Of a DNA stretch of 60,186 nucleotides, positions 1,109-40,839 are shown in pieces. The first letter of the stretch is position 1. Every line of letters begins with the position of its first letter. The position numbers and the translations under genes are program-made. Origin of the DNA: a virus; the IMG/VR virus record IMGVR_UViG_3300035698_017217, positions 1 to 60,186 of that record; one strand, 5' to 3'. The notes beneath the pieces are model-generated. The model was given only the letters and a program-made list of their open reading frames with translations. It made no database searches and was not told the origin of the DNA.

Positions 1109-1817
1109 TTATATGTTTAAGAAAGCTTACTACATGTCTTTGTATGTTTGCTCTGTTTGCAATTATGGATGTGCTAATTGTGGCAAGATAGAAATGAGGA
1201 AAGCTGATCCTCATTATCAAATGTCTATTGAAGAATTGAAACAGTTTATCTACTCATGGCGAAAATCTGGCTACAGACCGTATAGAACGCTTGTACTAAC
1301 AGGTGGTGAACCATTGATGTGGGAGAATTTGAACGAAGGGGCAGAATTGTTAAAACGGGCTGGTGTTTCTAAAAGACTGGATTTGTTTACCAATGGATTG
1401 ATAGTAGAAAATGTAACTTCTGATTTACTATCAGGCCGTTTTCAATTACGTATCTCAAGATACAAAAGAAATGAAGAAAACGTAAAAACGCTTTGTAATA
1501 AGTTTGGTAAAAAAGTACGTGTAGTCAATCAACAAACGCATTATATTGTTCCGAAGGCTTTACATCCTGAAGATACCATACCTTGTGCATGTAAATGTCA
1601 AGGGTTGTTTGTATACGATTGGAATGTCTATGCTTGTACAAATCTTATTGATGTGTATTTGGGATGTAAACAGTCTTTGGGAGAAATTGAAAAATACAAA
1701 ACGTCTTTACAACCCGGTTATCATCAAGCATTGTCTGAATTCCCCAGAGCTAATCATATTTTTTGTAGAGGTTGTATAGCAAACAAAAATCTTGGGGAAA
1801 GGATGAAAAGAGTATGA
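1101..1817 (+). CDS. Radical SAM protein
   Basis: This 238-aa protein carries CNYGCANC near residue 20, the CX3CX2C motif that binds the 4Fe-4S cluster of radical SAM enzymes. LTGGEP follows at about residue 67, the usual SAM-contacting GGE motif. Its C-terminal half has CACKCQG, CTN and CRGC, suggesting an auxiliary cluster (SPASM-like). The substrate is unknown; its place at the head of a sugar-modifying gene run suggests nucleotide-sugar or peptide/glycan chemistry. Starts at 1113 and 1131 are also possible; 1101 overlaps the upstream stop. Confidence 0.85.
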   Translation: MIDYMFKKAYYMSLYVCSVCNYGCANCGKIEMRKADPHYQMSIEELKQFIYSWRKSGYRPYRTLVLTGGEPLMWENLNEGAELLKRAGVSKRLDLFTNGLIVENVTSDLLSGRFQLRISRYKRNEENVKTLCNKFGKKVRVVNQQTHYIVPKALHPEDTIPCACKCQGLFVYDWNVYACTNLIDVYLGCKQSLGEIEKYKTSLQPGYHQALSEFPRANHIFCRGCIANKNLGERMKRV

Positions 1818-3193
1818 TCCTTCCAAGGATGAAACAAGATTTCATAAAAGATTTTGATGAACTAATAAAAGCTTTTGATAATAATGTACCTTTTGTTATA
1901 TCTAGATATGGTGATGGTGAAATTCGTGTTTTGCAAAAAATCAGAATACGGAGATCAAGTGGGTGGTCTTGCTTAAACCCTAAAACACATCCATTGGCAA
2001 AACGATTGAGAAAGTCTTTTGAATACCATGATCCTGGTTATTACAAGGGCATATTATGTCCATGCTGTGTAGAAAACATGAATAGATGGTACAGACGCCA
2101 TACCAATCATCCTATTCATCAATTGACATTTGCCAGTATTTTTATACGGGCCAATCATCGTTTTTTTCTAAGATGGCTAGGGAATAAACCAAGGGATAGT
2201 TACACATTAGTTTCGCCTAACAACGGAGATATAAAAGTCCCAAAAAACGGGTTTGAAAATGGATACGATTGGAACAAAACTGTTGATGAAATGATTGCTG
2301 CTGACAAGCCTCTTTTAGTTGCTGCTGGTCCTTTAGCTAATGTTTTGGTTTATGATTATTGGACAAGAGGTCCAAGGAAACACCCTGCCTTGGATATAGG
2401 ATCAGTGCTAGACCGTTCCCTTGTTCATAAAAAAGTCACTAGAAGATACCAGAGATCTAATACAACAGCTTCTCGAAAAGTATGTGTTTGGAGATTGGAA
2501 GAATACATAAGTATAAAAGAATCAGTTTCAGAAAAATCAAAACCAATTGATCTAAACGAAATAGGAATTTCTGTAGGTGCTGCTGATGTTTCAGACAATG
2601 AGATAACACGTTTTTTAAGCTTCATTGATAAAGAAGTAAGTCATTCAATTATTACTGAAGCTCCTTCTGGTCCACTAAGTAGGTCTTTGTTGTTGAACAA
2701 AGGAATAGAAAAGCTTCGTGACCATTGCAAGATTATAGTGTGTACTGATATAGATCTTATTATACCACCTGGGTTGATAGAGTATGTTGCAAAAACAGTA
2801 AAGCCCGGTGTTTCTGTATGGGCTCAAAGAAGAAAGTTTGATTTCCCTGATGATTTTAATTACCAGAACATTGATGAGAACCAATGGAAAGAGTGGTTGA
2901 GATTGATGCCATGTCCTACTGGTAAGGGTTGTTGGCAGGCTATGCATATTGATGATTGGAAAAAAATTGGTGGTTGGGATGCTAGATTGTCTGGTTGGGG
3001 TGGAGAAGATGATGTTCTAGAAATCAAAAAGAAAAGATATGGTATCCAGACTATTACAAGTGCTGCTTTTCCATTGATGCATATCAACCATGATAACCGA
3101 AGTCGATGGGAGTTACGACGAGGAAAAGAAAATTTGAGATTAGGCAAAGAATTGATAAAAGAAGAGTTAATAGGGAAAAGACCTATAGATTGA
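1814..3193 (+). CDS. Two-domain glycosyltransferase (GT-D-like plus GT-A-like)
   Basis: 459 aa from an ATGA overlap start with GGAAAGG just upstream; a longer in-frame ATG at 1772 lies deeper inside the previous gene and is less likely. Residues ~10-200 contain ISRYGDGE, as in the GT-D fold (DUF1792-type) glycosyltransferases. The C-terminal half has a DxD site in VCTDIDLIIPP and a GGWDARLSGWGGEDD segment followed by an HINHD stretch, as in GT7-C/GT2 transferases. I infer a bifunctional enzyme adding two sugars. The acceptor is unknown. Confidence 0.8.
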   Translation: MILPRMKQDFIKDFDELIKAFDNNVPFVISRYGDGEIRVLQKIRIRRSSGWSCLNPKTHPLAKRLRKSFEYHDPGYYKGILCPCCVENMNRWYRRHTNHPIHQLTFASIFIRANHRFFLRWLGNKPRDSYTLVSPNNGDIKVPKNGFENGYDWNKTVDEMIAADKPLLVAAGPLANVLVYDYWTRGPRKHPALDIGSVLDRSLVHKKVTRRYQRSNTTASRKVCVWRLEEYISIKESVSEKSKPIDLNEIGISVGAADVSDNEITRFLSFIDKEVSHSIITEAPSGPLSRSLLLNKGIEKLRDHCKIIVCTDIDLIIPPGLIEYVAKTVKPGVSVWAQRRKFDFPDDFNYQNIDENQWKEWLRLMPCPTGKGCWQAMHIDDWKKIGGWDARLSGWGGEDDVLEIKKKRYGIQTITSAAFPLMHINHDNRSRWELRRGKENLRLGKELIKEELIGKRPID

Positions 3194-3276
3194 TTTTTGG
3201 TTTTGTTCTATATTGTAATTTCACTTATTGAAATTGATAGTTTGTAGATTAGCGGATAAGGATTTGATGAATATGA

Positions 3277-3534
3277 ATGTGGGCTGACGTTGAACCAATT
3301 GCATGTGCTATTCGGGTGTTCCATGATGGGGCTGTATATGGTGATCCGTATACGTGGGCAGCTACGATACGATATATTGATCGGAAAACTATTGAGATTA
3401 TTGGCATTACCTGTGCTCCGAAGCCTAGTGAATGGCGGGCTATCGTAGCTAGAATGAAGTGTGATGGGGTTAGTAAGATAGTATTCAGCCGTAAACGTGG
3501 TGGCAATGATGAATCTCATACGATAGATGTGTAA
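3277..3534 (+). CDS. Hypothetical 85-aa protein
   Basis: No recognised motif. It is a compact alpha/beta-looking sequence with two tryptophans and a basic C-terminus (SRKRGG). It lies after an 83-bp gap that may hold a promoter and just overlaps the next reading frame. Ribosome site weak (AAGGA about 14 bases upstream). Most likely a real small gene because it fills the space between two tightly packed genes. Confidence 0.55.
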   Translation: MWADVEPIACAIRVFHDGAVYGDPYTWAATIRYIDRKTIEIIGITCAPKPSEWRAIVARMKCDGVSKIVFSRKRGGNDESHTIDV

Positions 3535-3571
3535 GCAATGCTTACAGGCTGAACAGTTAAAAGGACGAAGA

Positions 3572-4639
3572 ATGTCTGAAAAAGAATGTGAATATCAGTT
3601 TGAAGAAATGGATAATGGTAAACACAAATGCTCATTATTTCAAGAAGATAATGGGAATAACTGTGATGGATGTATCAAAAAATTACCATTAACTGATGAG
3701 CATTTTATAGAAAAATGGAAAGATCCTCTTATTGTTTTGGATCGAACACGTACTAAGACTGATTCTATTCACAATTTGCTTGGTGGTGGTTGTGCCTTTC
3801 TTGTTGGTGGTGGTCCATCCACTAAGAAATTTGCACTAGAGAAGTTGAATTATCGTGGTGTCTTCACGATGGGTGTAAATAATGTAGCCGCTCACCCGAG
3901 GTTCAGGGCTTCCTCGTTTGTGTGTTCCGACCCACCAAAGAAATTTTCGAATAGTATTTGGTTAGATCCGCATTGTATGAAATTCGTACCATCCCCAAAA
4001 ATGACCGGTCGTAGGCAAAAATTGAGAATGAAGAAAAATGGGGTATTCTATAAATCCGACACAGGTGTTTCTGAATGTCCTAATATATGGGCATTCAAAC
4101 GGCACAGTCATCTAAGGCCAGATGAAACTTTTTTCACTGAAGAAGGAGCATTTTGGGGAAACCATAACAAGGGTGTGAAGATGACAGGAGAGAAAAAGAC
4201 AGTTTGTACCATGCTGTTGGCTATGAGGTTGTTGTACTTCCTTGGAGCAAGACGTATCTTTCTAGTTGGTGTTGATTTCCTTATGAGCCCTGGGGCTGTC
4301 TATTCGTTCGATCAAGGTAAATCAGATGGTGGTTGTGATTCCAATAATAACCAATACACCGTAGTCAATGATTGGCTATGTAAGATGGAAGATGATGATG
4401 TATTTGGTAAATTTGGGTTAGAAATTTTTAACTGTTACGAACACAGTGGATTGAGGGCATTTCCTTATGTATCATTTGAAGACGCTATTGACATAGCTAC
4501 CCAAAACGTTGAACAAGTTCCTGATTTGAAAGATTGGTACGATAAGGACGAATGCCCAAATAAAGAATGCAAAAGTTGGCATTTGCATATAGTAGATGGC
4601 AAAAAAACATGTCTTGATTGTGGAAACGTTTGGGAATAG
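3572..4639 (+). CDS. Maf/MptE-like (DUF115-type) protein with zinc ribbon
   Basis: 355 aa from ATG 3572, chosen because AGGACGA lies 5-12 bases upstream; an in-frame ATG at 3527 would overlap the previous gene. The core has AFLVGGGPS followed by GVFTMGVNNVA and SFVCSDPP, resembling the DUF115/MptE-like fold found in flagellin-glycosylation Maf proteins and in phage glycan loci. The C-terminus CPNKEC...CLDCGNVWE is a zinc ribbon. N-terminal cysteines may form another metal site. Role inferred: sugar transfer or nucleotide-sugar handling. Confidence 0.7.
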   Translation: MSEKECEYQFEEMDNGKHKCSLFQEDNGNNCDGCIKKLPLTDEHFIEKWKDPLIVLDRTRTKTDSIHNLLGGGCAFLVGGGPSTKKFALEKLNYRGVFTMGVNNVAAHPRFRASSFVCSDPPKKFSNSIWLDPHCMKFVPSPKMTGRRQKLRMKKNGVFYKSDTGVSECPNIWAFKRHSHLRPDETFFTEEGAFWGNHNKGVKMTGEKKTVCTMLLAMRLLYFLGARRIFLVGVDFLMSPGAVYSFDQGKSDGGCDSNNNQYTVVNDWLCKMEDDDVFGKFGLEIFNCYEHSGLRAFPYVSFEDAIDIATQNVEQVPDLKDWYDKDECPNKECKSWHLHIVDGKKTCLDCGNVWE

Positions 4640-27245: not shown

Positions 27246-27606
27246 TGATATCCAGCGTAAAATTCAACTACTTATAGAAATGGCAGGGGCTTTCAATAAA
27301 GAATACCATGAACTTGTGTTAAGACGATTGGTAAAATCTGTAAAATCTATGACAGTTGAAGAACTTGAATATGCTATTGATAAAGTGATAGTTGAGAATG
27401 TATTTGCTCCTACTATTGCAGAATTGTGGAAGATCATTGGTATTAAACGAACAGAAGAAAAGTTTGTGCTTTGCAATAAGGTGATGACGTGGTTGCATAA
27501 AAACACTGACTGGGATTATTCCCAACATGCTGTGCAATGTGATATAGACACAGCTTTAATAGCTCTTGGGAAAAAAGCAGGATCGGTAACTACAGATGAT
27601 ATTTGA
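27238..27606 (+). CDS. Probable helicase loader
   Basis: 122 aa, ATG overlapping the initiator's stop. ENVFAPTIAELWKIIG resembles the short motif in phage loaders and in lambda P-like positions, and the gene lies exactly between initiator and helicase. No AAA+ motif, so it would be a non-ATPase loader. Assignment rests mostly on gene order. Confidence 0.5.
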   Translation: MVNDIQRKIQLLIEMAGAFNKEYHELVLRRLVKSVKSMTVEELEYAIDKVIVENVFAPTIAELWKIIGIKRTEEKFVLCNKVMTWLHKNTDWDYSQHAVQCDIDTALIALGKKAGSVTTDDI

Positions 27607-27623
27607 ATGGAGTTCGGAAAACC

Positions 27624-29006
27624 ATGAAGGTAAAGAAATACGATGGAACTGAAGAACGAAGAATTTTAGCCGAGATGGTGACGAATCAAACAGTATGCAT
27701 CAGAATAGCCAGTCAATGGAAAGACGATGGTGAAGGGTTATTTGGTTCGAAGTGGTCTAACTTAGTTGCTGGTTGGTGTATAAAACATGTAAGAAACTAC
27801 AACACAGCACCAAACAAACATTTACGTCCTATCTTCGATAGTTGGGCATCAACTACAAAAATGCCTGAATCGACCATTGATATGGTTGAGGACTTTTTGT
27901 CCGGTTTGTCTGATGAACATAGCCAGGATGAACAAAAGTCAAATGATTTCATCTTGGATATGGCAGGAGAGCATTTTAATAAGATACAAATCAAACGTGC
28001 CATGACTGAAGTGGATCTTCAGTTAGATCGAGGTAAGGTGGATCTTGCTAGATCTGCAATGCTTGAATTGGATAAGGTTGAGCTAGGTGAAGGGGCTTTG
28101 CTCAAACCATCTGAAAACTTCGAGATATGGAATGATGCATATAATGAAGAGATGGAACGTCCATTGGTTCCATATGGTGGTAAACTTACTAGTTTTCTAA
28201 ATGACGTAATGGTTCGTGATAGTTTTGTAGCATACATGGCTCCAGATAAAACTGGTAAGTCAATGATGTTGCTTGATGCTGCGTACCGAGGTATTAGGAA
28301 TAATTGTAAGGTAGCTTATTTTGAAGTTGGGGATATGAGTCTATCGCAAGTGTTAAAACGACTTGGACAAAGGGCTTCCAGAACACCAAAATCAAAAGGC
28401 AAGATCCGTTTGCCAAAATCTATTGATGATGAAATGAACGTTAAGTACGAAGTCAAACGATTTGATGAAGGTTGTACTGCTAGAAAGGGATTCAAATCAT
28501 TTAGAAAAGTATGCAAGGGTAAAGATCTTTTTAGATTGTCTTGTTATCCGAATAGTAGTATGGATATATTACGAATTGATAATATTCTAAGAGATTGGAG
28601 TTTAGAAGGGTGGGTGGCAGATGTGGTAGTCATAGATTATGCTGATATCCTTGCACCACCGTCACGGTCATCAGATCCACTAGAACAGATAGATATGACG
28701 TGGAAGCTTCTACGTCGAATGTCACAAGAGCACCATTGCTTAGTGCTTACTGCTACTCAAAGCAGTGCTGCTGCCTACACAAACAAAGCCAGTGTTCTTA
28801 CGAAGAGACATTTTTCGGGACGAAAGACCAAGTTAGCCCACGTTAATGCGATGATAGGTATCAATGTTTCTCCTGATGATAAAAAGAATGGAGTCACTAG
28901 GTTGAATTTTGTTGTGAGACGAGATGGGTATTTTAGTGAGAATCGGTATGTTGCTGTTGCTGGATGTTGGGATATTTGTAGTCCGTTGATGAAAACAGCG
29001 GAGTAA
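27624..29006 (+). CDS. DnaB-type replicative helicase
   Basis: 460 aa, starting at ATG 27624 (a TTG at 27603 would overlap the loader). N-terminal ~170 residues are helical, as in DnaB N-domains. The RecA-like domain has Walker A APDKTGKS, VAYFEVGDMS, Walker B VVIDYADIL and LTATQSS (sensor), with a later arginine-rich FVVRRDGYF segment. Likely the fork helicase that works with the loader and primase. Confidence 0.9.
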   Translation: MKVKKYDGTEERRILAEMVTNQTVCIRIASQWKDDGEGLFGSKWSNLVAGWCIKHVRNYNTAPNKHLRPIFDSWASTTKMPESTIDMVEDFLSGLSDEHSQDEQKSNDFILDMAGEHFNKIQIKRAMTEVDLQLDRGKVDLARSAMLELDKVELGEGALLKPSENFEIWNDAYNEEMERPLVPYGGKLTSFLNDVMVRDSFVAYMAPDKTGKSMMLLDAAYRGIRNNCKVAYFEVGDMSLSQVLKRLGQRASRTPKSKGKIRLPKSIDDEMNVKYEVKRFDEGCTARKGFKSFRKVCKGKDLFRLSCYPNSSMDILRIDNILRDWSLEGWVADVVVIDYADILAPPSRSSDPLEQIDMTWKLLRRMSQEHHCLVLTATQSSAAAYTNKASVLTKRHFSGRKTKLAHVNAMIGINVSPDDKKNGVTRLNFVVRRDGYFSENRYVAVAGCWDICSPLMKTAE

Positions 29007-29077: not shown

Positions 29078-29998
29078 ATGAAGTCTTTTAAGCGTGATGA
29101 TTTGATTGCCCTGTTCCAAGGTCTTGGTTATCCTAATGCCGAAACTTGGAAGAAGAAACGAATGTTCCACAAGGTCGAATCATTAGCTGAAATGATGGTT
29201 GATTCTGTCATTGCTGTTGAGGAAGGCACTGAGGATGAAGAACGGCTGAATGGTATTCTTGTTGAATTGAAAGATGCTGATGGTGATTACAGTATCGTGT
29301 CTGGTATTGATCCCGATGAACCGGTGAAAAAGCCAGTGAAGAAGAAAATAATAAGAAAGCCCAAGAAGGTCGAAAATCCGGTTGTTGAAGATGAAGATGA
29401 TGAAGATGATGAAGATGATGAAGAAGCAACCGATGAACCAGTAAAAGAGCCGATAAAGAAGAAAGTAACAAGAAAGACCAAGAAGGTCGAAAATCCGGTT
29501 GTTGAAGATGAAGATGATGACGCAACTGAGGAACCGGTGAAAGATGCGTGTACGGTTGAAGAATGTACGGTTGAACCAAAGAAAGAAGAAGTAAAGGTAG
29601 AAATATCTGTTATAGATCCTGAAGCAGCATGTAAATTTGAGGATCATATTCGTGAATTGGTGGACCAACGTTTTGGTACGTTGATGCTTGATTTCACTAA
29701 TGCAATGACAAATGCTTTGTCTACGTTGAAGCCTAAAGCATTGGCTACTGTTGCAACGAAAACTGTTGGTGGTGGCAAATCTTCTGATGTGGTGGATGCA
29801 ATTGTAGAATTCTATGGAGAAGCTTCCAAGGAGTATCCGTCTACTCTGAAGGAGATGCATAAGAAGTTGGCAAAACGTTTTCCTGATAAGAAGCCCGAAA
29901 CGTTGAGGAACACTTTGTACCTCTATAGCCCTAATAAGCTGTTAAAGGAAAGAGGTCTGGTGGTAAACGTTGAAGGTCAAAATCGATGGACTGATTAA
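29078..29998 (+). CDS. Acidic/basic repeat protein of unknown function
   Basis: 306 aa from ATG 29078 (AGAGGAG upstream). Residues ~80-170 alternate Lys-rich (KKPVKKK) and Asp/Glu-rich blocks, including a duplicated VENPVVEDEDD unit. The C-terminal ~70 residues (YPSTLKEMHKKLAKRFPDKKPETLRNTLYLYSPN) look like a folded winged-helix or SAP-sized domain. Could be a DNA-bound scaffold; unassigned. Confidence 0.7.
   Translation: MKSFKRDDLIALFQGLGYPNAETWKKKRMFHKVESLAEMMVDSVIAVEEGTEDEERLNGILVELKDADGDYSIVSGIDPDEPVKKPVKKKIIRKPKKVENPVVEDEDDEDDEDDEEATDEPVKEPIKKKVTRKTKKVENPVVEDEDDDATEEPVKDACTVEECTVEPKKEEVKVEISVIDPEAACKFEDHIRELVDQRFGTLMLDFTNAMTNALSTLKPKALATVATKTVGGGKSSDVVDAIVEFYGEASKEYPSTLKEMHKKLAKRFPDKKPETLRNTLYLYSPNKLLKERGLVVNVEGQNRWTD
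29361..29519 (+). repeat. 42-bp in-frame duplication
   Basis: An exact 42-bp segment at 29361-29402 recurs at 29478-29519, coding the KKVENPVVEDEDD unit twice. Suggests recent slippage or recombination in the linker. Confidence 0.85.
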
Positions 29999-30009
29999 GG
30001 AGTTACAAA

Positions 30010-30183
30010 ATGTTAGCGTTAACTAGGGAAGAAGAAGAACAGGTTTTGATAGGTTCAGATATTAGAATTACTGTAATTAAAGTTCTTCACAGGAAAGTAG
30101 AAATTGGGATAGAAGCCCCCAGACATTTACGTATCGAACGGGTAAGACCTGGGGAGGAGGTTTATAATGAAGGTAAATCGTGA
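30010..30183 (+). CDS. csrA: CsrA/RsmA translational regulator
   Basis: 57 aa, too short for usual ORF cut-offs. MLALTREEEE, VLIG, VIKVLHRKVEIGIEAP and RIERVRPGEE reproduce the CsrA backbone: Leu2/Leu4-Thr5-Arg6, IG at 14-15, IG at 32-33, AP at 36-37 and Arg44, matching residue by residue with E. coli numbering. Leu4 and Arg44 are key RNA-binding residues in the family. CsrA dimers bind GGA in hairpins over ribosome sites. The gene overlaps the sliding clamp start by 17 bases, with GGGGAGGAGG inside csrA serving the clamp. It may control phage leaders or host CsrA targets. Confidence 0.9.
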   Translation: MLALTREEEEQVLIGSDIRITVIKVLHRKVEIGIEAPRHLRIERVRPGEEVYNEGKS

Positions 30184-31177
30184 AGACGTATTGATTAAGT
30201 TAGAGACCATTGTTCCTGGTATTACTACCGACGATGTTATTGAACAAGGGAATTGCTTTGTGTTTGTGGATGGCCAAGTGGTATCCTTCAATGACGAAGT
30301 AGCTTGTTTTGCTAAACTTGATCTTGGTTTTGAAGGAGCAGTACAAGCAAAGCTATTTTTGGGCTTGTTGCGAAAAATGACAGAAGAGATAATTGATATT
30401 TCTTTAGATGAATCTGTTATTGTTGTTAAAGGCAAGAGGAAGAAAGCAAAGATTGTTGTTGAGAATGATATTGTTCTAGGTGTTGAAGATATCGAATCTC
30501 CAGAAGATTGGAGTAAACTTGATGATGATTTTTCAAATGCGTTATCAACAACAATTCATTGTGCTAGTAAAGTAGAGTCACAATTTCTTTTGACATGTAT
30601 TCATATATGTCCTGATTGTTTGGAAGCTTGTGACAGATACCAAATAATCAAGTATCCAATTGTCATTGACATTTCTGATAATGTTTTGGTCAAAGCTACT
30701 TCATTACGTTATGTAGCTGATATGGGTATGAGTGAATTCAGTTTGACAAAAAATTGGATTCATTTTCGTAATGATGATGGTAGTGTGTTTAGTTGTAGAA
30801 TTTATAACGAAACGTTCATCAAGACCGAAAATCATTTTAACACTACTGGCGATAAAGTAGAATTCCCGAAAGACCTGAATAAAGCTATTACGACTGCTGC
30901 TATCTTCGCTACAGATTCGAATTCTGATGATGTGCTGAAGATTAAACTGACTCGTAGTAAAATGAAAGTAACTGGTGAAGGGACCAGTGGTGTTTACACT
31001 GAAGTCATACCAATTGATTATGAAGGGAAAGAGATTGAGTTCTTTATTGCACCCAAGTTTTTGTCTGAAGTGCTGAAGTACTCATATGAATGTGTTGTTT
31101 CGAAAGAAAGATTGATGGTAACTACTGACAAGTTTAAGTATGCCACTTGTTGTTGCCATGCACCATCAGGAAACTAA
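30167..31177 (+). CDS. DNA polymerase sliding clamp
   Basis: 336 aa with the repeated beta-alpha-beta pattern of beta-type clamps: Phe/Val-rich strands, FPKDLNKAITTAAIFA and a C-terminal FIAPKFLSEVLKYS segment similar to the final clamp domain. Its neighbours (loader ATPase at 35708, polymerase at 33544) complete the processivity set. Length is slightly short for DnaN, typical of phage clamps. Family assignment by pattern. Confidence 0.8.
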   Translation: MKVNREDVLIKLETIVPGITTDDVIEQGNCFVFVDGQVVSFNDEVACFAKLDLGFEGAVQAKLFLGLLRKMTEEIIDISLDESVIVVKGKRKKAKIVVENDIVLGVEDIESPEDWSKLDDDFSNALSTTIHCASKVESQFLLTCIHICPDCLEACDRYQIIKYPIVIDISDNVLVKATSLRYVADMGMSEFSLTKNWIHFRNDDGSVFSCRIYNETFIKTENHFNTTGDKVEFPKDLNKAITTAAIFATDSNSDDVLKIKLTRSKMKVTGEGTSGVYTEVIPIDYEGKEIEFFIAPKFLSEVLKYSYECVVSKERLMVTTDKFKYATCCCHAPSGN

Positions 31178-31178
31178 A

Positions 31179-32372
31179 ATGAATGGATTTTTTGATACTG
31201 ATTTTTCTAAGACTAGTCGTATGTCTAAAGTGCCTAGATGTAGAATGTGTAAGCTAGATAGAAAATGCATGTCACCAAGGATGGAACCTTATGGAAAAGG
31301 TGAAAGAAAAATCCTTGTTGTTACAGAGGCACCCGGTGAAGCGGAGGATGAGCAGAATGTTCGATATGTTGGAAAGTCATGGCAATTGTTGGACAAGATG
31401 TTTGATGAGGTCGGTTACGACTTAGAGATGGACTGCTGGGTTACGAGTGCGGTCACTTGCCGACCAATAGACAACAGAACGCCAACTAGGAAAGAGATTG
31501 ATTTTTGCCGTCCTTCGCTTCTTAATACAATTGATGAGTTAAAACCGTTTGCTGTTATTTTGATGGGAACGTCTGCTGTTGATTCGTTGCTTGGATCTGT
31601 TTGGAAAAAGGACATCGGTGGTATATCCAGATGGGCTGGTTATCAAATACCGTTGAGAGAGAAGAATATCTGGGCATGTCCAATTTTCCATCCATCGTAT
31701 GTTATACGAATGGAGAATGATGTACTTGATTTGTGGTACAAGAAGCATATCAAAAATGCAATGAAGTTGATGAGTGTGCCTTGGCCTGTTGGTCCACCTG
31801 ATTATGAAAAGATGGTAGTCAAGATACTTGACCATAAGAAAGCTGCAAAAGAAATCAATAAGTTTGTTGATTCTGGAAAGCCTGTTGCTTTTGATTATGA
31901 AACAGATCGTCTGAAGCCTGATGATCCTAGATCGAAAATAGCTAGCTGTGCTATAAGTGATGGTGTTAGAACTATTGCTTATCCATGGGAAGGTGATGCA
32001 GTACAAGCGTCTAGTGATTTTCTGAAAAGTGGTGTTCCAAAAATTGCTGCGAACATAAAGTTTGAAGAGCGATGGACGAAAGCTGTACTTGGTCATGGTG
32101 TAAACAATTGGAAGTTTGACACCATGCAAGCTTCTCATGTTTTCAATAACGAAGCTGGTATAACGTCTGTAAAATTTCAGTCTTTTATCCGTCTTGGTGT
32201 TGGTGACTATGATTCTTATATCCATCCATTTTTGTCCCAAGAAGGGCTGAACGGAGGAAATAGAGTTTTCCAAGCAGATATTGATAAGCTGCTTCTGTAC
32301 AATGGCATGGATGCAATTCTTGAATACCAAATAGCCGAACGACAGATGAAAGAAGTTGGAATCGTTTTATAA
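31179..32372 (+). CDS. UDG-like domain fused to 3'-5' exonuclease
   Basis: 397 aa from ATG 31179. Residues ~10-200: CRMCKLDRKC cluster cysteines, ILVVTEAPGEAEDEQ (UDG superfamily active-site loop), CWVTSAVTCRP and CPIFHPSY, as in family 4/5 uracil glycosylases and the UDG-like start of SPO1-type polymerases. Residues ~225-397: exo I AFDYETD, exo II AANIKFEERW, exo III LYNGMDAILEY. The polymerase domain expected next is on a separate ORF at 33544, after an HNH gene. Confidence 0.9.
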   Translation: MNGFFDTDFSKTSRMSKVPRCRMCKLDRKCMSPRMEPYGKGERKILVVTEAPGEAEDEQNVRYVGKSWQLLDKMFDEVGYDLEMDCWVTSAVTCRPIDNRTPTRKEIDFCRPSLLNTIDELKPFAVILMGTSAVDSLLGSVWKKDIGGISRWAGYQIPLREKNIWACPIFHPSYVIRMENDVLDLWYKKHIKNAMKLMSVPWPVGPPDYEKMVVKILDHKKAAKEINKFVDSGKPVAFDYETDRLKPDDPRSKIASCAISDGVRTIAYPWEGDAVQASSDFLKSGVPKIAANIKFEERWTKAVLGHGVNNWKFDTMQASHVFNNEAGITSVKFQSFIRLGVGDYDSYIHPFLSQEGLNGGNRVFQADIDKLLLYNGMDAILEYQIAERQMKEVGIVL

Positions 32373-32431: not shown

Positions 32432-33022
32432 ATGATCTGTAGAACCGATTGTGTTTTGAAAGAATGTAAAGAGTGTTGGGGTAAATTTACCACAAAGAAT
32501 AAAGATGAAAAGTATTGTTCTGCTGAATGTCGTGAAGAAGCAGAAAGAACTAAAACAATGGATCGTATAAGGAGACTTTCTGGTCCAATACTTGGTGAAT
32601 CAAACTCCAAAAAAAGAAGCCTTGCTTATTCTGATGATAGATTAGAAAAAGTTGAGTGTAAAGATGGAAAATGGGATATGTGGGTACGCAAAGATAGAAA
32701 AACTGCTTTTGTAAGAAAAGTAGTTGTTGTATTAGAAAAAGATAAGGGCAGTGAACTTACAAGGGGTGAAAAACAACGAATTCGTTTTAGAGATGGAAAC
32801 CGATTAAATACTCATATAGATAATTTGTTGTTTTCAAAAACAGAATATAAATTTAGAGTATGTAAAGTGTGTGGTGATGAGAAGTCAGTTCTCAAAGTCC
32901 ATTATGATACTTTTCAAGGAGTGTGTAGAAAATGTCATATTAAAATTGTTGGGCGTGGTCATAGAAAGCAAGATGCTGAGCAGGTAGTTGGAAGTAATAA
33001 TAAGGAGAATCAAAATGTCTAA
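32432..33022 (+). CDS. HNH endonuclease-like protein (possibly inactive)
   Basis: 196 aa. N-terminal CKECWGKFTTKNKDEKYCSAEC is a zinc finger typical of phage HNH proteins; IRFRDGNRLNTHIDNLLF aligns with the HNH core (HxDGNxxNNHIDNL) but the first catalytic His is Arg/Phe. C-terminal CKVCGDE...CRKCH is another zinc site. Could be a degenerate homing enzyme or a DNA-binding relic. It sits between the two halves of the polymerase. Confidence 0.8.
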   Translation: MICRTDCVLKECKECWGKFTTKNKDEKYCSAECREEAERTKTMDRIRRLSGPILGESNSKKRSLAYSDDRLEKVECKDGKWDMWVRKDRKTAFVRKVVVVLEKDKGSELTRGEKQRIRFRDGNRLNTHIDNLLFSKTEYKFRVCKVCGDEKSVLKVHYDTFQGVCRKCHIKIVGRGHRKQDAEQVVGSNNKENQNV

Positions 33023-33524
33023 GATAATCACCATAGAAGAATTGATAGTTGCTTTTGAAAAGAAATGTAATTTTGAAATACCAGTAGAAGGAATTTATGA
33101 GTGTGCTGTTGATGCGGTACAAATAAATAAACACAAAGATTACAAACGATCCATAATGTTGGATAAACTTAATACATGTTTAGATGGTTTCTGTTGTGAT
33201 TTTACAGATATTCGTCATATGATACATGAATGGCCGACTTTAGTGCAATGGAAAAAAGAAGGCTTGCAGACGATGAGGGATAAAATACATCAAGAAGAAA
33301 GAGGTAACAATGTAAGATGTAAGGTCAAAGTAAAATCAAAAACAAAAATAGAAATAGAATCTGGATTATCTAGAGCGTCTATGGCTAAAGAAGTTGCTTT
33401 GAAAAAACTACTCAAAGAAAAAGAAAAACAACATAAAGATGATAAAAAACAAATTGAATATTTATTGCAAATTTGTGAGAATCAAAAAGATGAAATTGCA
33501 CGTCTAAAAAAACGTGGAAAATAA
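33015..33524 (+). CDS. Hypothetical 169-aa protein with C-terminal coiled coil
   Basis: Start 33015 follows TAAGGAGAATC. N-terminal 70 residues helical with four Cys; C-terminal ~60 residues are a Lys/Glu coiled coil (KEVALKKLLKEKEKQ...). Lies with the HNH gene in the insert between exonuclease and polymerase ORFs. Confidence 0.65.
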   Translation: MSKIITIEELIVAFEKKCNFEIPVEGIYECAVDAVQINKHKDYKRSIMLDKLNTCLDGFCCDFTDIRHMIHEWPTLVQWKKEGLQTMRDKIHQEERGNNVRCKVKVKSKTKIEIESGLSRASMAKEVALKKLLKEKEKQHKDDKKQIEYLLQICENQKDEIARLKKRGK

Positions 33525-33543: not shown

Positions 33544-34884
33544 ATGAAATTCAAAACAAAAGACGCTTACAAATTGATGCATGATGGAGCATTGGCGTTG
33601 GCTCAAGTTGAGTCTGATGGTATGCGAATCGATGTTAAACGAATGGATCGTGCCATTGTTGAAACTGGTGAACGTATTACCAAAATGACAGCAGAGTTGA
33701 AGGAAGATGAGATTTGGAGAACATGGAAAAAGCTATTTGGAAAAAAGTCCAATCTTGGTAGTACTCACCAGTTAGGCAAAATCTTGTTTGAGGAACTTGG
33801 TTATGAGCCTAGATCTAGAACGAAAACAGGTAAGCCACAAGTCAATGAAGAAAACTTACGGTCTATTGATTTGAAGTTCATTGATGATTATCTCACCATT
33901 AAGAAATTGATGAAGCTACAATCTACTTACTTAAAGGGTATACGAAAAGAAGTAGTTGATGGGTTTCTTCGACCATCGTTCAATTTGCATCTTACCAAAA
34001 CGTTTCGGTCCAGTAGCAACAATCCAAATTTTCAGAACATACCAATCAGGGACAAAGAAATTGGCAAGTTGATTCGTTCGTGTTTCATACCAAGGGATGG
34101 GCATGTGTTGGTAGAAGTCGATTACGGTGCATTGGAGTTTCGGATTGCTGCATCGTTTTGGAAAGACAAGAACATGGTTGAGTATGCGTCTGATCCTGAT
34201 CTTGATATCCATAGAGACATGGCTGCTGAATGCTATTGCATGAAAAAGTCTGAAGTCACGAAAGAAGCTAGATTCTATGCAAAGAATCAGTTCGTATTTC
34301 CTACGTTGTATGGTTCGTACTACGTCACTACTGCTAGAGATCTGTGGACTGCTATGCAGAAAGAGAAACTGAAAACAGCAGATGGTGTTCCTCTTCAGCA
34401 GCATATGAGAAAGAAAGGTATCACTCAGCAAAATTTTGAATCACATATCAAAAAGGTAGAAGAATCCCTAAACGAACGATTTGCAACGTGGAGTGATAGA
34501 AAAGAAAAGTGGTGGAACAAGTATCAGAAAACTGGTGGCTTTGATTTGCTAACAGGCTTTCATATAGATGGCGTCTATTCTAAAAACCAATTGATGAATA
34601 CACCCATTCAAGGACCAGCATTCCATTGCTTGTTATGGTCGTTGATAAAAATGGTGAAGTGGCTGAATAAGAAACAGATGCGAAGTTGTGTCATTGGTCA
34701 GATTCATGATAGTATCGTGGCAGATGTGCATGTTGATGAATTGAAGACTTATCTTAGGAAGATAAAAAATGTGATGACTGTTGATGTGCGTAAGCATTAT
34801 AAATGGATCAGAACACCATTGGAGATCGAAGCTGAAGTGGCAGAAACGACGTGGTTTGATAAGAAAGAAGTTGATATCCCGTAG
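33544..34884 (+). CDS. Family A DNA polymerase domain
   Basis: 446 aa. Motif A VEVDYGALEFRIAA, O-helix region ARFYAKNQFVFPTLYGSY (Arg, Lys, Tyr-Gly), and motif C VIGQIHDSIVADVH, where the usual HDE is HDS. NPNFQNIPIRD and RTKTGKPQVNEENL are also standard. It has no exonuclease or UDG part; those lie upstream at 31179. No clear ribosome site precedes the ATG, which leaves open that it is joined to the upstream ORF by splicing or is translated by coupling. Confidence 0.9.
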   Translation: MKFKTKDAYKLMHDGALALAQVESDGMRIDVKRMDRAIVETGERITKMTAELKEDEIWRTWKKLFGKKSNLGSTHQLGKILFEELGYEPRSRTKTGKPQVNEENLRSIDLKFIDDYLTIKKLMKLQSTYLKGIRKEVVDGFLRPSFNLHLTKTFRSSSNNPNFQNIPIRDKEIGKLIRSCFIPRDGHVLVEVDYGALEFRIAASFWKDKNMVEYASDPDLDIHRDMAAECYCMKKSEVTKEARFYAKNQFVFPTLYGSYYVTTARDLWTAMQKEKLKTADGVPLQQHMRKKGITQQNFESHIKKVEESLNERFATWSDRKEKWWNKYQKTGGFDLLTGFHIDGVYSKNQLMNTPIQGPAFHCLLWSLIKMVKWLNKKQMRSCVIGQIHDSIVADVHVDELKTYLRKIKNVMTVDVRKHYKWIRTPLEIEAEVAETTWFDKKEVDIP

Positions 34885-35623: not shown

Positions 35624-35707
35624 AAACTACCAAACGGTTATGTTGTTTTTCTGCAAAGGCGAATTTAGATCCATTATTTGTATGGAAAGAGATTTACGGA
35701 GAATGAT

Positions 35708-36634
35708 ATGGAATTATATAGAAAGTACCGGCCTTCAAAATTAAAAGATGTTGTTGGCCAAGATGATGTTATTGAGATGCTTAATGATTTTGGCATAAAA
35801 GGAACGCTGCCACATTGCATCCTATTTTCTGGACCATCAGGATGTGGCAAGACAACTGTTGCTCGTATCTTGCGGACAAAGTTGAAGTGTCGAGATACTG
35901 ATTTTATGGAAGTTAATGTTGCTGATTTCCGTGGCATTGATATGGTTCGTGATATACGATCAAAAATGTCGCTAGCTCCAATGTCTGGGAATACACGGGT
36001 ATGGTTGATCGATGAAGCAGCTTCATTGACTAAGGATGCTCAGAATGCGTTTCTGAAAATCCTAGAAGATACACCAAGGCATGTGTATTTCTTTTTGGCC
36101 ACAACTGATCCACAGAAATTGTTGAGGACGATTCGAACTAGGACTACCGAAATTAAGATGAATGCTCTTGGTAGTGCTGATATGGAAACGTTGGTACTGT
36201 CAGTTTGTAAGAAGGAAGAAAAGAAGCATCTTGAAGATAGTGTGTTGGACAAGCTTGTTAGGATGGCTGATGGTAGTCCACGAAAAGCATTGGTGTTGTT
36301 GAATCAGATCATTGCTATAGATGATGAAGACATAGCTTTGGAGGTACTTGGTCAAGGTGACAATGATGAAGAAGCTATTGCACTAGCTAGGCTGCTGCTG
36401 AAAAACAACGTCAGATGGTCTGAGATAGCCGCCATGATAAAATCGATTAAAGGGATCAATGAACAGGTAGAAAGTATTCGTTGGCTTGTGCTTTCATACA
36501 TGAGTTCGGTTGTTTTGGGTGATGGGAAACAAGCTGCTAAAGCATGTGTTGTGATGGAAGCATTCAGAGATCATTTCTATGACAGTAAGAAAGCTGGTTT
36601 AATACTAGCATGTCGTGAAGCTATCGGTTTATGA
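35708..36634 (+). CDS. AAA+ clamp-loader ATPase
   Basis: 308 aa from ATG 35708 with CGGAG upstream. ELYRKYRPSKLKDVVGQDDV, Walker A GPSGCGKTT, Walker B VWLIDEAAS, sensor 1 FFLATTDPQ and a TIRTRTTE segment in place of the SRC box match DnaX/RFC-small/gp44 loaders. Only one loader subunit is visible; a partner may be elsewhere or the RarA-C-like protein at 47863 may serve. Confidence 0.9.
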   Translation: MELYRKYRPSKLKDVVGQDDVIEMLNDFGIKGTLPHCILFSGPSGCGKTTVARILRTKLKCRDTDFMEVNVADFRGIDMVRDIRSKMSLAPMSGNTRVWLIDEAASLTKDAQNAFLKILEDTPRHVYFFLATTDPQKLLRTIRTRTTEIKMNALGSADMETLVLSVCKKEEKKHLEDSVLDKLVRMADGSPRKALVLLNQIIAIDDEDIALEVLGQGDNDEEAIALARLLLKNNVRWSEIAAMIKSIKGINEQVESIRWLVLSYMSSVVLGDGKQAAKACVVMEAFRDHFYDSKKAGLILACREAIGL

Positions 36635-38356: not shown

Positions 38357-38392
38357 GGGAAGAGGGATTAACCCCCCTCTTCCTACGTTTTA
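38357..38392 (+). terminator. Hairpin terminator before RecA gene
   Basis: GGAAGAGGG (38358-38366) pairs with CCCTCTTCC (38375-38383), followed by TACGTTTT. The next ribosome site begins just downstream, so termination is probably partial. Confidence 0.6.
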
Positions 38393-38403
38393 AGGAGAAG
38401 ACT

Positions 38404-39501
38404 ATGAAGACTGAAGATGTAAAAAATTGTATGACTGCCAAGAAAGAAAAATCCACACCCATTGAAGAAATGGAATTGCTTCATACAGGCAGTACATTGC
38501 TTAATCTTGCATGTTCTGGGAAATCTGATGGTGGTTTTCCACAAGGTTGCTATATATTTTTTGTTGGTGATTCCATGTCTGGTAAAACGTGGTTTTCGCT
38601 TACGTGCATGGCTGAAGCGTCTATTGATGAAAGATTTGATGATTATCGATTCATCTACGATAACGTTGAACGTGGTGCTAGGATGGATTTGATACGGTAC
38701 TTCGGTCAGAAGATGGCTGACAGATTGGAGCCACCTGCTGTTGATGAAGATGGAGATCCTGTCTACTCTTCGTATGCAGAAGAATTCTATTTCAATTTGG
38801 ACGATGCTTTTGAAGTAGGCAAGCCGTTCATTTATATCATGGATTCGATGGATAGCCTTGATACGTTTGCTGACGATAAGAAGATGGGTGAATGGAAAAA
38901 AGATCATCGTGCTGGTAAGGCAACAAAAGGCACGTATGGTATGAGTAAGGCCAAATTGAATTCTACTAATCTCAGAAAGATTTGTGCAAGGCTTGAGAAG
39001 ACTGGTAGCATTCTGATTGTAATTAGTCAGACAAGGGACAATGTTGATCCAAAACAACCGTTCCAGACTAAGACAAGAGGTGGTGGTAGAGCTTTGCGTT
39101 TTTATGCTACCATTGAAATGTGGTCATCAGTTATCGGCAAGATTCAAAAAACGTATAAGGATAAAAAGCGTCAGATTGGATCGAACGTAAAGCTGAAGAT
39201 CCAAAAGAACCGTTTGACTGGTAAGGAATGCGAAGTAGTTGTTCCAATTTATCATAGTATTGGAATAGATGATATTGGATCATGTATTGATTATCTTGTT
39301 GATGAGAAAGTGTGGACGCAAACAAAATCAGGTGTTGTATCTCCGAATAATATTGGTCCTGTTAAACCTATGCGTAGGGACAAATTGATTGAGTATATTG
39401 AAAAGCATGATTTAGTCATGGATGTGCAAGATTTAGTTGGAGATGAGTGGCAGAAGATTGTTGATGCTACTGCTGTAAAACGTAAACCTAAATATGAATA
39501 A
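38404..39501 (+). CDS. RecA/UvsX-like recombinase
   Basis: 365 aa. Walker A FFVGDSMSGKTWFS, Walker B FIYIMDSMDSL, LIVISQTRDN, and the ATP-site LRFYATIEMW segment fit RecA/UvsX. It lacks the DNA-binding C-terminal domain of bacterial RecA but has a winged-helix-like tail. Works with SSB, SbcCD and RuvC here. AAGGAGAAG upstream. Confidence 0.9.
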   Translation: MKTEDVKNCMTAKKEKSTPIEEMELLHTGSTLLNLACSGKSDGGFPQGCYIFFVGDSMSGKTWFSLTCMAEASIDERFDDYRFIYDNVERGARMDLIRYFGQKMADRLEPPAVDEDGDPVYSSYAEEFYFNLDDAFEVGKPFIYIMDSMDSLDTFADDKKMGEWKKDHRAGKATKGTYGMSKAKLNSTNLRKICARLEKTGSILIVISQTRDNVDPKQPFQTKTRGGGRALRFYATIEMWSSVIGKIQKTYKDKKRQIGSNVKLKIQKNRLTGKECEVVVPIYHSIGIDDIGSCIDYLVDEKVWTQTKSGVVSPNNIGPVKPMRRDKLIEYIEKHDLVMDVQDLVGDEWQKIVDATAVKRKPKYE

Positions 39502-39513
39502 AGGATTATAGTT

Positions 39514-40839
39514 ATGGATATTGCTGTTATTGGAACTGGTTACGTTGGGCTTGTTACTGGTGCATGTTTGGCTAACACTGGTCATCATGTGACTTGTATT
39601 GACAAAGATATTAAAAAGATATGGAAGTTGAACAACAGACAGATTCCAATCTATGAGCCTGGACTGAAGAAGATAGTAGACAAAGCTTTTGATAAAGGAA
39701 CAATTGCTTTTTCAACTGATATTGCGAATGCTATCAATAACTGTAATGTGATTTTCATATGTGTTGGTACACCATCGGATCATAAAAGTAGAGCAGATCT
39801 TTCGTCATTGATAGCTGTTGTTGGTTCAATAAGTTTTCAAGATCAGCATACGAAACTAGATCAGAAGACCATCATAATCAAAAGTACTGTTCCTGTTGGA
39901 ACAAACGAAAAGATGTTTTTGTTGCTAGACAAAAAACACAATGTCATCAGTAATCCGGAATTCCTGCGTGAAGGACATGCCTTAGATGATTGTACGAATC
40001 CCGATAGGATCGTAGTAGGCACCAGAAGCAAAGGAGAGACAGAATTGATGGAGAGAATTTATAAAGAAACTATTTCTGATTTTTCTCCGTTGGTTTCAAT
40101 GTCTCCCGAAAGTGCTGAAGTCACTAAGTATGCCGCCAATGGTTTTCTCGCTACGAAAATTTCGTACATGAATGAGATCGCCAATTTTTGTACTGCCGTT
40201 GGTGCTGATATTGATGAAGTAAAGAAAGGGGTAGAAGGTGATTCTAGGATCGCTGGGGCATTCTTAAACGCTGGCATCGGTTATGGGGGATCTTGCTTCC
40301 CAAAAGACATTAGAGCCTTGTGGCGGAGTGCAGAGGAAGTAGATCGACCTATGGTGATACTTGGAACCGTCGATATTATCAATGAGAGGCAAAAGGTTGT
40401 TTTGATGAAACCTTTGTTAGATCATTTTGACAATAATTTAGAAGGTAAGCGTATTGCTATATGGGGATTGGCTTTCAAACCCGACACAGATGATATACGC
40501 GAAGCTCCTTCTTTGGACATAGTTGAAAGACTGCTGGACCATAGAGCAAATGTAGTAGTGCATGATCCGCAAGCTTTAGAAAATTTCAAGGAGTTGTTTG
40601 GGGAAAGAATAGAGTACTGCGATAATAAGATGGAAGCAGTAAAAGGAGCAGATGCTTTAGTTATTGTTACTGAATGGGATGAGTATAAAAGGGCTCATGT
40701 GGATTCAGTTCGTTACGTTATGAACGATGCTGTTATATTTGATGGTCGAAACGTGTTTGATCCAGAATCTATGTACGATTTTATGTATTACAGCATCGGA
40801 AGAAAAACTGTTTATGGAGAAACTGATGAGAGTAGCTAA
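39514..40839 (+). CDS. ugd: UDP-glucose 6-dehydrogenase
   Basis: 441 aa, normal family length. AVIGTGYVGLVTGACLA (NAD-binding), FICVGTPSD, STVPVGT, NPEFLREGHA, SAEVTKYAANGFLATKISYMNE, GYGGSCFPKD with the catalytic Cys and GLAFKPDTDDIREAPS are all present, so it is predicted active. It oxidises UDP-glucose to UDP-glucuronate using NAD+. It sits in the recombination/replication block rather than the sugar island, so its product may decorate DNA or feed a phage-specific pathway. Confidence 0.95.
   Translation: MDIAVIGTGYVGLVTGACLANTGHHVTCIDKDIKKIWKLNNRQIPIYEPGLKKIVDKAFDKGTIAFSTDIANAINNCNVIFICVGTPSDHKSRADLSSLIAVVGSISFQDQHTKLDQKTIIIKSTVPVGTNEKMFLLLDKKHNVISNPEFLREGHALDDCTNPDRIVVGTRSKGETELMERIYKETISDFSPLVSMSPESAEVTKYAANGFLATKISYMNEIANFCTAVGADIDEVKKGVEGDSRIAGAFLNAGIGYGGSCFPKDIRALWRSAEEVDRPMVILGTVDIINERQKVVLMKPLLDHFDNNLEGKRIAIWGLAFKPDTDDIREAPSLDIVERLLDHRANVVVHDPQALENFKELFGERIEYCDNKMEAVKGADALVIVTEWDEYKRAHVDSVRYVMNDAVIFDGRNVFDPESMYDFMYYSIGRKTVYGETDESS

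Follow-up and report, generated by a model that had tools for sequence, protein, structure and literature searches.

Background

Proteins of the CsrA/RsmA/RsmE family (Pfam PF02599) are RNA-binding regulators whose contact with RNA depends critically on two residues of CsrA, L4 and R44. The high-affinity form of the CsrA site is a GGA presented in an ANGGAN hexaloop, and two GGAs can be bridged by CsrA when they are spaced 10-63 nt apart; the csrA gene of E. coli is autoregulated, and glgC has a hairpin-plus-Shine-Dalgarno arrangement of its sites (PMC7652899). CsrA can also act on a downstream gene through translation of the frame before it, as in the case of iraD, which is repressed through the overlapping stop and start of an upstream open reading frame (PMC5574718).

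Members of the same family are encoded by phages such as F116, the Bcep22-like JC1, Vibrio phages and PTXU04 (gp28). Of the 2517 phages surveyed by Sobrero and Valverde (2020), 30 had a csrA (PMC7366521); many more such genes were reported from GenBank and IMG/VR by Campa (2021), who suggested that they serve as anti-CRISPR factors (PMC8450108). The CsrA of JC1 is perhaps present in the virion (PMC9144972), and knockdown of the PTXU04 csrA by CRISPRi-ART results in smaller plaques (PMC11879866). This is the one knockdown of a phage csrA to have been reported.

The present analysis deals with a csrA gene (positions 30010..30183, plus strand) of an uncultivated virus, in the IMG/VR record IMGVR_UViG_3300035698_017217. 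The whole stretch of 60,186 bases that was analysed is referred to hereafter as the window, and it carries a single csrA. The gene lies immediately before the gene of the DNA polymerase sliding clamp. In JC1, csrA is located between the portal and capsid genes, and in the Vibrio phages among small genes of no known function. Phage csrA is already known from many phages; what is new is the pairing of csrA with the clamp gene, recurring in distantly related phages. No csrA before a sliding clamp was seen among the annotated phage records examined, and a recurrent pairing of the two genes was not found described in the papers searched, of which a single one, a T4 omics study, mentions CsrA, sliding clamp, phage and DNA polymerase together. 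With csrA linked in cis to a replication gene across a range of phages, there would be a concrete, testable target, namely its own leader and the clamp, as opposed to diffuse effects on the host.

Identification of the CsrA-family protein

The open reading frame starts with ATG and encodes a protein of 57 amino acids (MLALTREEEEQVLIGSDIRITVIKVLHRKVEIGIEAPRHLRIERVRPGEEVYNEGKS) that was assigned to the CsrA family by Pfam, PHROG and PDB matches of both sequence and fold. PF02599 covers residues 1-53 (E=4e-16, 59.2 bits; family cut-off 27), PHROG 9500, annotated as 'CsrA-like regulator', was matched with E=2e-11, and the PDB sequence search retrieved nine distinct CsrA/RsmA/RsmE sequences. The NCBIfam equivalog cut-offs for CsrA were missed (51.7 versus 73 bits for NF002469 and 46.2 versus 70.1 bits for TIGR00202), and the protein is therefore placed within the family but not equated with the standard bacterial CsrA.

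The residues retained are L4, R6, G33, A36, P37, I42 and R44, of which L4, R6 and R44 and the G33/A36/P37 core agree in the alignment with 34 other viral CsrAs. The window protein shares its fold, its length, L4/R6/R44 and the GxxAP loop with the bacterial CsrA/RsmA/RsmE proteins, and its identity with the E. coli, B. subtilis and RsmE sequences used for comparison is about 38-43%; apart from the equivalog scores, it differs from them in the region of the C-terminal helix, the start of which is replaced by a proline/glycine-containing stretch (RPG). Position 43 carries E in place of H.

A monomer model was predicted by AlphaFold from an input alignment of 35 viral CsrAs (pLDDT 88.6). CsrA/RsmA/RsmE chains make up all 15 of its best PDB fold matches (rmsd 1.5-2.8 A), most of them at about 1.6 A across 44 residues, and RNA-bound structures of RsmE and RsmA are included among the fold matches. 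Only three strands are assigned in the monomer model, since in the CsrA dimer the outer strands pair between the two subunits. The preliminary description of this DNA, made without database searches, had proposed a 57-residue CsrA with L4 and R44 conserved, and the database matches bear this out and extend the retained set to R6, G33, A36, P37 and I42. The window frame is thus confirmed as a genuine CsrA-family gene with its RNA-binding residues retained.

Genomic context of csrA

The gene lies among replication genes on the plus strand. A DnaB-like replicative helicase (27603..29006; PHROG 19, E=4.7e-24) is followed by a gene for a lysine/acid-rich protein of 306 amino acids with no family match (29078..29998), by csrA and by the sliding clamp of 336 amino acids (30167..31177; PHROG 947, processivity factor, E=1.6e-25). 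Further downstream on the same strand are a gene combining a UDG-like part with the 3'-5' exonuclease part of DNA polymerase (31179..32372; PF03167 and PF01612) and a family A DNA polymerase (33544..34884; PF00476, E=2.7e-60), and beyond these the clamp loader (35678-36634) and uvsX (38404-39501).

The 3' end of csrA overlaps the start of the clamp gene by 17 nt, a value that relies on the agreement of the clamp start at 30167 with the start residue of its homologues. The earlier claim that csrA stands just before the clamp gene and overlaps it is accordingly upheld; its placement directly after the helicase is incorrect, the 306-residue protein gene separating the two, and the term 'hidden' is an overstatement for a kind of short overlapping gene that is common in phages.

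On reading the sequence, csrA is preceded by the Shine-Dalgarno AAGGAG (29997..30002, plus strand), 7 nt before the ATG, which also provides the second GGA of the leader. The clamp has a Shine-Dalgarno region of its own inside csrA (GGAGGAGG, approximately 30153..30160, plus strand), and since this is a strong one, translational coupling to csrA is not required. Folding revealed no structure beyond that of shuffled sequences that would hide the clamp Shine-Dalgarno (z=-0.09), nor any exceeding shuffles at the starts of csrA and the clamp gene.

Distribution of csrA among the relatives of the clamp

Relatives were gathered by a clamp search, which gave 80 loci, and the full contigs were then scanned for csrA. 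The closest clamp found, 47% identical to that of the window, is from the locus L010 (IMGVR_UViG_3300017989_001732), in which csrA is immediately 5' of the clamp gene and ATGA is common to the csrA stop and the clamp start. As in the window, csrA, clamp, UDG-exonuclease, family A polymerase and a clamp-loader-like gene occur in this order, with a csrA-clamp overlap of 4 nt as compared to 17 nt in the window. The L010 CsrA is 47% identical to the window CsrA and is without R6. The L010 contig starts 16 nt upstream of csrA, so that the csrA leaders of the two are not comparable.

In a distant phage (L065/L066), csrA is again immediately 5' of the clamp gene, the two being about 49 nt apart. It lies 2.9 kb upstream of the clamp in L047 and, by the full-contig scans, 6 to 16 kb from it in six further contigs. 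About 70 of the 80 clamp-bearing contigs, which are partly fragments, have no csrA, and the gene is therefore not needed for the clamp. The preliminary description had called the placement unusual, which is correct in that most relatives of the clamp have no csrA 5' of it, but the recurrence in L010 and L065/L066 means that it is not unique.

The window and L010 are sisters in the clamp tree (99/99 support). L065/L066 do not group with them and the intervening backbone is unresolved, so that a single origin of the pairing is possible. Random placement of csrA among the genes of each contig gives P of about 0.001 for the three pairings and about 0.005 for two (without L010), values that are only rough because the contigs are fragments chosen for carrying the clamp. 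Recurrence above chance speaks for some connection between the two genes, either in cis or through timing.

No close relative came up when the single csrA sequence was used as the query. The CsrA tree has long branches and no resolution and does not reveal where the window csrA came from; the case for a common ancestor of the window and L010 genes hence relies on synteny and the clamp tree. A two-sequence pattern search of bacterial genomes detected 17 loci, 11 of them named as planctomycetes, a result that does not fix the host. Between the window and L010 csrA genes the differences at the first, second and third codon positions number 25, 10 and 34, respectively, and different codons are used at 14 of the 26 residues common to the two proteins. 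The predominance of third-position differences and the scarcity of second-position ones show that the CsrA protein is under selection.

Some other features of the related contigs were noted. In contig G001 the csrA (L005:1501-1710) is divergent, has an insertion following residue 15 and is located between SbcD-like and SbcC-like genes. A tRNA-like sequence, recognised by eye (L065:604-733), lies just 5' of csrA in L065/L066. Contig G060 (L179, L180) has an open frame of 331 amino acids with two CsrA-like stretches below threshold, which may be due to chance or represent a split CsrA-like domain.

GGA motifs and hairpins in the leaders

Several phage leaders had been described as carrying GGA at their ribosome sites. 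This is true of 72% of the called window leaders (positions -20 to -5, the genes being called by a simple script and hence approximate), but it was rejected as evidence for CsrA, as the same fraction of leaders has a Shine-Dalgarno and the frequency falls within the 20-100% observed in relatives without csrA.

A check of the leaders for GGA hairpins, as had been recommended, did find a weak excess of the ANGGAN form. Stems of at least 5 bp carry 3 of the 58 window motifs, compared with 2 of 540 in the relatives that lack csrA (Fisher p=0.008); for stems of at least 4 bp the counts are 5 of 58 and 10 of 540 (p=0.01; p=0.08 when compared with low-GC relatives). These tests were post hoc, and several loops were tried. 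The excess includes the csrA leader itself, where a candidate CsrA site with a 5-bp stem and an AUGGAC hexaloop (29981..29996, plus strand) abuts the Shine-Dalgarno. With -0.4 kcal/mol and a pairing probability of 0.27-0.40 this hairpin is weak, and its GGA (29988-29990) is 11 nt from the Shine-Dalgarno GGA, at the lower limit for bridging. The region 29981-30002, with its weak ANGGA hairpin and a Shine-Dalgarno GGA spaced at that limit, is a candidate for an autoregulated leader of the E. coli csrA/glgC type. The hairpin search identified a second candidate site, also weak (-0.1 kcal/mol), in which an AAGGAG hexaloop holds the uvsX Shine-Dalgarno (38387..38402, plus strand).

In L065, the csrA Shine-Dalgarno lies in an AAGGAA hexaloop on a 5-bp stem, which is predicted to be disrupted in context (pairing probability 0.04). 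Of 80 distinct leaders of viral csrA genes only 3 contain an ANGGAN hairpin, which was accordingly rejected as a general trait of viral csrA. Given this rarity, the weakness of the hairpins and the post hoc nature of the tests, the excess is to be treated as a lead only. Rfam gave no match in the window, neither to a sponge RNA of the Csr type nor to any other known family of RNAs.

Probable role and alternative explanations

The reading preferred here, with a probability of roughly 0.5, is that the window encodes a functional RNA-binding phage CsrA which autoregulates, in so doing adjusts the clamp coupled to it, and has further targets among the mRNAs of phage and host. A small dimeric CsrA, produced from the replication gene cluster along with the replication proteins, would bind GGA in RNA hairpin loops and block ribosome binding. 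It would repress its own translation via the GGA pair of its leader, provided by the hairpin and the Shine-Dalgarno, and so hold its own level; ribosomes ending csrA could start the clamp, so that autorepression would also limit the clamp. In trans its targets may include a few phage mRNAs, with uvsX as the best candidate, as well as mRNAs of the host. The preliminary description had suggested that the protein could switch phage translation between stages or seize host CsrA targets, both of which are conjectures. We infer expression, dimer formation, RNA binding, autoregulation, coupling and targets of this CsrA from the family and fold, the retained residues, the selection seen against L010, the recurrent pairing with the clamp, the leader hairpins and the precedents described above. 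The proposal is weakened by the feeble leader hairpin, the 11-nt spacing, the clamp's own Shine-Dalgarno, the altered C-terminal helix and the relatives without csrA. A stricter version, in which the coupled csrA-clamp pair governs replication and recombination as a dedicated regulon (own mRNA, clamp and uvsX) and the pairing arose at least twice, is considered doubtful; if true, an RNA-binding protein would set replisome dosage.

The chief rival to autoregulation and clamp control is action on host mRNAs, and both can hold together. The phage protein would then add to or replace the host CsrA and lower host mRNAs for metabolism, CRISPR-Cas or other defence, with the position at the clamp merely ensuring timely and strong expression. 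The precedents that RsmA represses CRISPR-Cas and that phage csrA correlates with csrA-bearing hosts (PMC8450108), together with the many positions of csrA among the relatives, as expected of a trans-acting accessory gene, make this a serious possibility although one given somewhat less than even odds, the recurrence of the clamp pairing above chance being the observation that it does not anticipate. The many clamp-bearing contigs without csrA would also suit a passenger (moron) gene that has ended up between two genes of replication and has little effect on the phage. Purifying selection across deep divergence, retention of the RNA-binding residues, the tight overlap, the recurrence of the pairing and the harm done to plaque growth by knockdown of the homologue in another phage (PMC11879866) all make such a passenger improbable. 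Still less credence, indeed very little, is given to a protein that has kept the CsrA fold and lost GGA binding in favour of another role, such as binding a host partner or forming dominant-negative heterodimers with the host CsrA. The change of H43 to E, the proline/glycine-containing stretch in the C-terminal helix region and the loss of even R6 in the L010 CsrA are in line with it; the retention of L4, R6 and R44 in the window CsrA and the match of its predicted fold to RNA-bound RsmE and RsmA structures argue against it.

Other genes of the window

The UDG-exonuclease and polymerase genes, which adjoin in the relative L010, are separated in the window by an HNH-like open reading frame and a familyless one (32432-33524); this insert is probably a homing endonuclease. 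Glycosyltransferase-like genes, with a galactosyltransferase domain and a weak match to a sialyltransferase PHROG, are located at 1772-4639. A UDP-glucose dehydrogenase gene that looks complete, with all three Pfam domains, lies beside uvsX (39514-40839) and may serve as an auxiliary metabolic gene for surface sugars.
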